DNA of 30,746 nt, from IMG/VR virus record IMGVR_UViG_3300009156_000412, positions 1 through 30,746 of that record; one strand, given 5' to 3'. This document shows positions 27,564 to 29,150 of the stretch, piece by piece. Source of the stretch: a virus. The position numbers and the translations under genes are program-made. How positions within the stretch are numbered: position 1 is the first letter of the stretch; every line of letters starts with the position of its first letter. The notes beneath the pieces were generated by a model, which worked only from the letters and a program-made list of their open reading frames with translations, did no database searches and was not told the DNA's origin.

Positions 27564-27886
27564 GTGTCTCCTTTCGGGTAGCCACATACCGGGCAGGGTT
27601 TGCCGGAGTGGTAGATGTGGTGCATTTTCTGCTTCGGGCAATCGGCCACCCCGAACACGGTTTCGCCTGCACTCGCGGAAACCGACGCCCGGCTGCCCGA
27701 AGACTTGCTTGGGTGACCTTCCCCAGGAGACACAGCCCGCTCCTGGCTAGGTCCAGCGTCGGCTTCCGCCAGTCGCGCTTCCGCGGCTCGGCGCAGCCAT
27801 TCAGAGAGACTGACAAGTTCGCGGTGGGCCGCTTCGACCCAGAGCTGCTTCTCGTCGTCCGAAACCTGAAAGATAACCCGTGGCAT
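27560..27886 (-). CDS. Ribbon-helix-helix protein with zinc-ribbon tail (108 aa)
   Basis: ATG at 27886 lies inside the first unit of a 9-bp repeat array and has no ribosome site, suggesting a leaderless or near-leaderless mRNA. Residues 1-40 match a ribbon-helix-helix fold: a strand PRVIFQVSDDE, then KQLWVEAAHRELVSLSEWLR. A Ser/Ala-rich linker follows, then a zinc-binding tail with CPKQKMHHIYHSGKPCPVCG (about 82-101). RHH repressors such as omega and CopG bind tandem short operators in front of their own genes, so autoregulation through the array is the natural idea. Confidence 0.72.
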   Translation of the reverse strand: MPRVIFQVSDDEKQLWVEAAHRELVSLSEWLRRAAEARLAEADAGPSQERAVSPGEGHPSKSSGSRASVSASAGETVFGVADCPKQKMHHIYHSGKPCPVCGYPKGDT

Positions 27887-27955
27887 AAGTTATGTAAGTT
27901 ATAGCAGTTATGCAACTGACATACAAGGCATATCTTGCATCACTTATGCAAGAAC
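27884..27955. repeat. Array 1: eight 9-bp units over a promoter and start codon
   Basis: Eight back-to-back 9-bp units beginning at 27884, 27893, 27902, 27911, 27920, 27929, 27938 and 27947. Examples are CATAAGTTA, TGTAAGTTA, TAGCAGTTA and CATATCTTG; most begin CAT or TG and several end in TTA. The first unit contains the start codon of the RHH gene, and the last two overlap the end of the zinc-finger gene upstream. The region is non-coding in the frame of the RHH gene (in-frame TAA). Confidence 0.7.
27898..27926 (-). promoter_or_regulatory. Candidate promoter inside array 1
   Basis: On the minus strand, TTGTAT (27926-27921), 17 nt, then TATAAC (27903-27898), 11 nt before the ATG at 27886. 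The -10 is close to consensus, the -35 is weak. Transcription would start a few bases before the start codon. A repressor covering the 9-bp units would block it. Confidence 0.5.
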
Positions 27956-28173
27956 TTGGCAGCCATCACCGTGCCGCACTTGCAGCACTGCTTGTGCGCG
28001 CCGACACCTTGGTGCTGTTCGGCGGGTTTGCAGTAGCAATGTTCGCAGGCGAGGTACTGCACCTTCCACCAACTGAGGTCGTTTTGGGGCCAGACATAGA
28101 TCGCCTGCTGCGGATTGCAGCGACAGGGTGTCACGCCACAGATGGTGCAGTCTCCGTAGTAGATGGTGGTCAC
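27940..28173 (-). CDS. Multi-Cys zinc-binding protein (77 aa)
   Basis: GTG at 28173 overlaps the stop of the RHH gene upstream. Cys pairs occur in CTICGVTPCRC (9-19), CEHCYC (43-48) and CCKCG (63-67), enough for two zinc sites. Middle residues include AIYVWPQNDLSWWKVQYLA. The end of the gene runs into the 9-bp repeat array. Likely nucleic-acid or protein binding; no family recognised. Confidence 0.68.
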   Translation of the reverse strand: MTTIYYGDCTICGVTPCRCNPQQAIYVWPQNDLSWWKVQYLACEHCYCKPAEQHQGVGAHKQCCKCGTVMAAKFLHK

Positions 28174-28343
28174 AGCTCTTCGACGTTGGCTACTGCTTGC
28201 CGTGCCTCTTGTAGCCGTGCGGCCTTGTCAAGCACGAGCCGCATCCAGCCACTCAGCTCTAGGTGCTGTCGTTCTGCAGCTTCACGCCAGCGTTCTTTCT
28301 CGATCTCACTGCATCTGATCTGGATTACCTCTTTACGCGCCAT
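28170..28343 (-). CDS. Small ribbon-helix-helix protein (57 aa)
   Basis: ATG at 28343; the stop overlaps the next GTG. The protein is a compact RHH repressor type: strand KEVIQIRCSEIE, helix KERWREAAERQH, turn LELS, helix GWMRLVLDKAARLQEARQ. It is the natural candidate for binding the tandem 9-bp units at 27884 and 29079. A second RHH protein lies two genes downstream. Upstream bases are G-rich rather than a clear Shine-Dalgarno. Confidence 0.72.
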   Translation of the reverse strand: MARKEVIQIRCSEIEKERWREAAERQHLELSGWMRLVLDKAARLQEARQAVANVEEL

Positions 28344-28362
28344 CCCCCCACCCTACCCGTCC

Positions 28363-28376
28363 TGACCGGTCATGAC
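28363..28376. promoter_or_regulatory. Overlapping palindromes upstream of RHH operon
   Basis: TGACCGGTCA (28363-28372) and GTCATGAC (28369-28376) overlap 20 nt upstream of the RHH start codon. GTCATGAC also occurs inside a 10-bp palindrome at 29258-29267. They may be operator half-sites. The rest of 28377-28460 shows no gene. Confidence 0.4.
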
Positions 28377-28460
28377 AAGGTACTTGCTCGGCTGGTCTAA
28401 AACATTTTCACCGGCGGATCGCAAAACCCTGCAGCGAAGCGGCCTGGGCCGGGTCGCGAG

Positions 28461-28640
28461 CTAGTAGTCGGCGGGGAGCGGGGTTTCGTGTGTGCCGGGC
28501 TTGATTTGCAGGTTGACGCCTGGAAAGACATGGTGGAGTTCCATGATCAGCATTGCTTCGTGGGGCGGCAGGCGGAGCAGCATCTCTTTCTCTTCTCTAG
28601 GCAGCGTCGCGAGCACTGCTTTCATCTCAGCTTCGGTCAT
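28461..28640 (-). CDS. Small hypothetical protein (59 aa)
   Basis: ATG at 28640 overlaps the preceding gene by 14 bases. The sequence is MTEAEMKAVLATLPREEKEM, then LLRLPPHEAMLIMELHHVFP and a polar end with a final Tyr. It has two short helices and no motif of known function. The clean composition and the overlap support it as a real gene. Confidence 0.6.
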   Translation of the reverse strand: MTEAEMKAVLATLPREEKEMLLRLPPHEAMLIMELHHVFPGVNLQIKPGTHETPLPADY

Positions 28641-28872
28641 CTCTAAACGGGATCAGCGCGACATCAAAGGCGATGATTCTTCGCGAATCTTCGGCGGTTG
28701 GTTCAAGCGGCAGCGGCACATTGGCAAGCAAGTCGCGTGAGGCCCGAACAAGTTCTTCCACCTGGGCGAGCGCTGCGACTGCGTCTGGGTCAGGAACCTT
28801 ACGCCAGTTACCTTCGCTTCCGACGATCACGCGTGGCAGCCCATCGCGCAGCACCTGGACGGGGTCGCTCAT
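28627..28872 (-). CDS. Hypothetical protein (81 aa)
   Basis: ATG at 28872 overlaps the stop of the gene upstream (ATGA). It has a short beta start (PRVIVGSEGNWRKVPDPDAV) and then a helix (LAQVEELVRASRDLLANV). No family is recognised. It is the middle gene of a three-gene overlapping set starting at repeat array 2. Confidence 0.62.
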   Translation of the reverse strand: MSDPVQVLRDGLPRVIVGSEGNWRKVPDPDAVAALAQVEELVRASRDLLANVPLPLEPTAEDSRRIIAFDVALIPFRDDRS

Positions 28873-29081
28873 TCGGGGGCGCCCTGCAATGCAGCGATCA
28901 GTAGCTCCCGCACCTTGCGCATCGTCTCATGCGTCGCCTCCACCGTCTTACCCTCCACCACCAACTTCAGCTCAAAACCAGCAACCGGCGCTTGGGTGAT
29001 CTGCAGCTGCTTCACCTCCGAGGGCATATCGAAGCGCACGTCATACAACGCCGTCACCCACACCTGCTGCAGGTCTTGCAT
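28869..29081 (-). CDS. Hypothetical protein whose start lies in array 2 (70 aa)
   Basis: I start at ATG 29081, which is the CAT of the first 9-bp unit read on the minus strand. The frame stays open through the array, adding Met every third residue, so longer starts up to 29201 cannot be excluded. The body is beta-rich (LYDVRFDMPSEVKQLQIT, then GFELKLVVEGKTVEA) with a C-terminal helix (HETMRKVRELLIAALQ). No ribosome site is visible, as for the gene at array 1. Confidence 0.6.
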   Translation of the reverse strand: MQDLQQVWVTALYDVRFDMPSEVKQLQITQAPVAGFELKLVVEGKTVEATHETMRKVRELLIAALQGAPE

Positions 29082-29150
29082 AACAGACATATCTGACATA
29101 AGAGGCATACCTTTCATATCTCGCATAACAGGCATAAGTGGCATAACGGG
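29079..29150. repeat. Array 2: eight exact 9-bp units beginning CATA
   Basis: Eight contiguous 9-bp units start at 29079, 29088, 29097, 29106, 29115, 29124, 29133 and 29142. All begin with CATA: CATAACAGA, CATATCTGA, CATAAGAGG, CATACCTTT, CATATCTCG, CATAACAGG, CATAAGTGG, CATAACGGG. Period and phase are perfect. Same unit length, number and placement over a start codon as array 1. Confidence 0.8.

Follow-up and report, generated by a model that had tools for sequence, protein, structure and literature searches.

Paired arrays of 9-bp boxes at gene starts in a phage genome, with a ribbon-helix-helix protein as their putative reader

Arrays and genes at the locus

The window analyzed here is an entire, incomplete record of 30,746 bp from an uncultivated phage (IMGVR_UViG_3300009156_000412, G000); it encodes a phage terminase and a major head protein, and its early region runs leftward. 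Two genes for ribbon-helix-helix (RHH) proteins, RHH-2 (27560-27886, minus strand, 108 aa) and RHH-1 (28170-28343, minus strand, 86% identical in a related phage), lie next to two arrays of short boxes. Upstream of RHH-2, a gene for a Cys-rich, zinc-ribbon-like small protein (27940-28173, minus strand; no family match found) runs with its 3' end into array 1. Array 2 lies at the head of a leftward operon of three overlapping minus-strand genes, in which a small first gene (28869-29090) overlaps the second (28627-28872), which overlaps the third (28461-28640). On the other side of RHH-2, a protein with HTH parts at both termini, flanking a homing-endonuclease-associated repeat (PF18780; 26650-27381, minus strand), is kept beside RHH-2 in the same related phage (55%). 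Most of the ten early proteins are orphans, and none matched a toxin family.

Array 2 (29077-29148, minus strand) consists of eight direct units, whose TATG cores recur at 9-bp intervals, placed over the start region of gene 28869-29090. Read in gene direction, the units are TTATGCCAC, TTATGCCTG, TTATGCGAG, ATATGAAAG, GTATGCCTC, TTATGTCAG, ATATGTCTG, and TTATGCAAG, and TATG is invariant in all eight. Each unit contributes an in-frame ATG, which leaves the start of the gene ambiguous, and the residue pairs that follow each encoded methionine (PL, PV, RD, KG, PL, SD, SV, and QD) are not conserved.

Array 1 (27882-27952) is mostly noncoding and has eight TATG-type sites on a 9-bp lattice, four in each orientation, over the predicted RHH-2 promoter and its ATG. 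On the plus strand the sites follow the order F R R R F F F R (F, CATA; R, TATG), which in gene direction is H G G G H H H G (G, TATG; H, CATA), with steps between centres of 7, 9, 9, 11, 9, 9, and 7 bp. Sites in the same orientation are thus 9 bp apart, the change from G to H takes 11 bp and the change from H to G takes 7 bp, together 18 bp. The last G (TTATGCCAC) holds the RHH-2 ATG (27886). The initial annotation had described two arrays of eight sites at 9-bp spacing, and this description stands. The perfect phase that it gave both arrays applies to array 2, which has one orientation, but not to array 1, with its mixed orientations and 7/11 offsets. Its claim that each array begins at a start codon fits array 1, where the RHH-2 ATG lies within the last unit, but is too simple for array 2 with its eight in-frame ATGs.

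Both arrays are real and far above chance. When each 72-bp stretch was scanned de novo, on both strands, for any 7-mer recurring on a 9-bp lattice, array 1 ranked first (score 7) and array 2 second (score 5), and the remainder of the window scored 4 or less. Across 181 dinucleotide shuffles of the whole window the maximum score was 5, reached twice, and the 7 of array 1 was never reached; once the core is allowed to be TATG or TACG, array 2 forms a chain of eight without a break. When orientation offsets from 3 to 17 were tried, the 11/7 geometry gave the sole long mixed chain in the window (six sites) and also picked out an array in the related phage L006 (four sites). One other mixed chain appeared in this test, of four sites in L006 at offset 9/9. 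A search of viral contigs for CATA every 9 bp returned more than 120 places, mostly apparent coding repeats or perfect microsatellites, with no further case of an array at an RHH gene among them. We note separately that an unrelated viral contig (L120, 44-108) carries an eight-site, mixed-orientation TATG/TACG chain on the same 9-bp lattice.

RHH proteins and the relatives of the arrays

The N-terminal beta-alpha-alpha fold of RHH-2 matches solved RHH proteins. Its AF2 model places helices at residues 10-22 and 27-43 (pLDDT above 90 there), with no strand assigned in the monomer model, and RHH proteins dominate the top Foldseek/VIA fold matches of residues 1-50 in the PDB, including Arc, CopG, NikR, PutA, AtaR, and omega at Z 4.5-7. 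Both proteins score below the Pfam NikA-like cut-off of 27 bits (RHH-2, 17.2; RHH-1, 23.1), which is an annotation threshold and no structural criterion, and we read them as divergent members of the RHH family. The two RHH genes of the initial annotation were thus recovered at their positions, RHH-2 by fold and RHH-1 by sequence similarity. Some protein searches of viral and bacterial genome collections returned a few relatives of RHH-2 and others returned none. The Cys/His-containing C-terminal tail of RHH-2 (CPKQKMHHIYHSGKPCPVCG, encoded at 27560-27650, minus strand) is missing from relatives.

A search with the terminase gave 24 loci. The syntenic phage IMGVR_UViG_3300015371_000043 (L006; terminase 78% identical) has both RHH-1 and RHH-2, and between them an array of TACGGCA-type boxes with steps of 9, 11, and 7 bp that ends at the RHH-2 ATG. 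The more distant IMGVR_UViG_3300036851_000520 (L021; terminase 58%) has two arrays. The first, array a, consists of GTACGCC boxes, the last of which overlaps the GTG of the gene RHH-a. The second, array b, was picked up by the blind scan and consists of ATACGG boxes that overlie TTGACC-16-TATAAT, which ends 9 nt short of the GTG of an operon of three overlapping genes with RHH-b as the third. Each of these arrays lies at a putative promoter and a start without a Shine-Dalgarno motif, either of an RHH gene or of an operon that contains one. The initial annotation had proposed searching related phages for the 9-bp phase, and these three arrays bear it out.

Compared with the window, the relatives have weaker and less regular arrays, each with an off-lattice break, and the 9/11/7 steps largely recur in them. 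With the best hexamer chosen for each segment and shuffles of that segment itself as the reference, lattice p-values for the three arrays of the relatives were 0.017, 0.007, and 0.03, compared with 0.6-1.0 at three control RHH promoters (RHH-1 of the window, RHH-1 of L006, and L034). In a test that required all sites on one lattice, L021 array a was not among the top windows because of a phase slip. Elsewhere among the relatives, L034 has no array at its RHH gene, L173 has a small, weak palindromic cluster at the promoter, and L009-L011 have RHH genes in another context and no arrays. The closest relative with upstream sequence (L005, terminase 88%) ends inside the gene adjoining RHH-2. A search of isolate phages with L021 RHH-b found nothing convincing, and an RHH-like match at G002:52733 was rejected on inspection as not RHH.

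Box letters and predicted reading residues change together across these phages, in a comparison that covers three phages and five arrays, with cores chosen from the arrays themselves. Residues 3, 5, and 7 in the beta-strand are predicted to face the DNA, from homology with solved RHH structures; in the window RHH-2 they are R3, I5, and Q7. This R-I-Q combination occurs with TATGC, K-T-N of L006 RHH-2 with TACGG(C), K-T-N of L021 RHH-b with TACGG, and K-T-R of L021 RHH-a, at the equivalent positions, with TACGCC. The pairing of K-T-N with TACGG is therefore shared by two phages whose terminases are only moderately related. Between the window and L006, RHH-2 has changed at exactly the predicted reading residues, and the core has changed from TATGC to TACGGC.

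This comparison points to RHH-2 as the reader of the arrays. Both RHH genes adjoin the arrays and conservation is higher for RHH-1 than for RHH-2, which could suggest that RHH-1 reads the boxes, alone or together with RHH-2 as a heterodimer or a competitor. However, the predicted reading residues of RHH-1 are identical in the window and L006 although the core differs, whereas those of RHH-2 have changed, and this is why we favor RHH-2. Moreover, the L006 array lies directly upstream of RHH-2, and RHH-1 promoters have the palindrome GTCATGAC and no lattice. We therefore regard a role for RHH-1 in reading the arrays as unlikely. The initial annotation had both RHH proteins reading a 9-bp code; the 9-bp phase in relatives agrees with this for RHH-2, but the unchanged residues of RHH-1 and the lack of a lattice at its own promoters do not extend it to RHH-1.

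RHH-1 probably reads another site, and GTCATGAC is the candidate. The palindrome occurs at 28369 and 29259 in the window, at 1113 and 590 in L006, and at 2974 in L034. Its copies precede RHH-1 in two phages, where they fall in a conserved stretch, and also precede the early operon, and in L034 it covers the RHH start. As a lead only, it is a possible operator of RHH-1-type proteins. A further element, TTTGCAGGGATTTTT, is conserved upstream of the early operon (about 29270-29300 in the window and about 246-262 in L006).

Predicted promoters and a putative autorepressor

A candidate RHH-2 promoter (27898-27926, minus strand) lies entirely within array 1, with TTGTAT as the -35 element, a 17-bp spacer, and TATAAC as the -10 element. 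The match is mediocre (8/12), and a stricter promoter scanner found no promoter in 27500-29500. Candidate -10 elements end 11 nt before the start codon in the window, 5 nt in L006, and 9 nt at L021 array b; among random ATG/GTG codons in the respective genomes, about 1.6%, 0.3%, and 0.04% have a promoter match as good. At L021 array a, a TTGACG ... TACTGT pair immediately before the GTG could be seen by eye, but it scored below threshold. Shine-Dalgarno motifs are absent from all array-covered starts, and the absence of a ribosome site at RHH-2 in the initial annotation was borne out, with no GGAG, GAGG, or AGGA upstream of the ATG. Given the predicted promoter position, a leaderless start is plausible, and the most likely role of array 1 would be autorepression by covering the promoter and the start codon of a near-leaderless transcript.

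For the operon behind array 2, one candidate promoter, ATGACA-16-TATAGG, lies about 106 nt upstream. Translation of gene 28869 probably starts gene-proximally, at ATG 29090 or 29081, since the L006 homologue lacks the array-encoded N-terminal extension and its start aligns with ATG 29090. The homologous gene in L006 has no counterpart of array 2.

Together, these observations suggest a model in which RHH-2 is an autorepressor that polymerizes on the 9-bp lattice over its own leaderless or near-leaderless promoter, with array 2 as a second target, and we consider this model likely. Each RHH-2 dimer would read one box of about 9 bp through its beta-ribbon, with TATGC as the core in the window phage, and dimers would align cooperatively on consecutive boxes in either orientation, in steps of 9 bp or of 11/7 bp where the orientation changes. 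Since array 1 spans the predicted promoter and start codon of RHH-2, binding there would close an autorepression loop. At array 2, boxes of the same kind cover the start of the early leftward operon that begins with 28869-29090, and RHH-2 would control this operon too, through a block of initiation or a roadblock to elongation. Binding, cooperativity, repression, and near-leaderless starts are what we infer for this pair of protein and arrays. We prefer an early-gene autoregulator to a lysogeny repressor circuit, which is not indicated, because no integrase or resolvase (PF00589, PF00239) was found in the four incomplete records searched.

Alternatively, a phage-plasmid could use the arrays as centromere-like partition sites (parS/parC) bound by RHH-2 as the centromere-binding protein, and transcriptional repression would then be a secondary effect. 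Omega, ParG, and ParR are RHH proteins that bind contiguous short repeats which also cover promoters, and two arrays about 1.2 kb apart resemble split centromeres. Yet ParA (PF13614) was not found in the incomplete records of the window, L006, L021, and L005, in a search confined to this one NTPase family that detected its controls, and RHH-2 homologues begin at the RHH strand, without the N-terminal tail of type Ib centromere-binding proteins. A partition function thus appears quite improbable.

We give still less credence to array 2 being a coding repeat (Met-X-X at the N-terminus of gene 28869) that shares its period incidentally with an unrelated AT-rich promoter at array 1. Nine bp is three codons, array 2 is in frame, and many 9-bp TATG/CATA arrays in other viral contigs look like coding repeats. 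But array 1 has the same core and period while being mostly noncoding and of mixed orientation, the X-X residues vary and the L006 homologue lacks the extension, and relatives retain the geometry at RHH promoters. Least probable is a replication origin in which the arrays serve as iterons for an initiator: short tandem repeats do lie close to early genes, but no initiator was recognized among the neighbours tested, and the boxes occupy gene starts and vary with the RHH residues.

Comparison with known RHH operators

For the putative RHH-2 autorepressor, omega (ParB of pSM19035) is the closest working model by analogy. This small RHH dimer binds 7-10 contiguous 7-bp boxes, direct and inverted, over its own and other promoters, and the arrays here likewise have contiguous short boxes in both orientations over a predicted RHH promoter and another gene start. 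We do not classify them as omega-type, because the boxes are 9-bp TAYG rather than 7-bp WATCACW and because the omega system includes a ParA partner, which the search of the four incomplete records did not find. ParR/parC systems of R1, pB171, pSK41, and Clostridium perfringens plasmids, which work with a ParM motor, also combine an RHH protein, as proposed here, with tandem repeats around a promoter, as predicted here. Their direct repeats are of 10, 11, 17, or 20 bp, and the portions of those reports available to us describe no mixed geometry like the 9/11/7 steps seen here.

The type Ib partition protein ParB of pCXC100 (Leifsonia) is an RHH protein whose centromere is described as direct repeats only; it belongs to a plasmid system with ParA, whereas the present arrays are in a phage. 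Its repeat length is reportedly near 9 bp. Among archaeal viruses, F55, SvtR, and AvtR are RHH autorepressors with several viral targets, and F55 recognizes tandem repeats both in the promoter of its own gene and in early promoters. These proteins differ in being archaeal and in using ATAGATAG or longer inverted sites, with no eight-box 9-bp lattice. Residues 1-50 of RHH-2 have the fold of the Arc/CopG/NikA-like family, in which Arc and CopG are known to act on one or two operator pairs, not on long lattices. No system that pairs an RHH protein with 9-bp repeats and matches this one emerged from the literature searched.

Most known RHH operators with contiguous boxes belong to plasmid partition systems, with boxes of 7, 10, 11, 17, or 20 bp. 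To these the arrays described here would add a phage lattice of 9 bp, the geometry of which depends on orientation and is conserved. Because reading residues and box letters change together in this natural series, the RHH recognition code could be tested with a handful of residue swaps. More tentatively, and with the chances somewhat against so broad a generalization, these phages may represent a family in which the geometry of an RHH lattice is fixed (9 bp within and 11/7 bp between orientations) while changes at two or three beta-strand residues rewrite its letters. Each phage, or each of two RHH paralogues within a phage, would then have a private operator alphabet and would repress leaderless promoters by covering the start codon. 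With its last box over a start codon that has no Shine-Dalgarno motif, the operator would extend into the coding sequence and tie repression to leaderless initiation.
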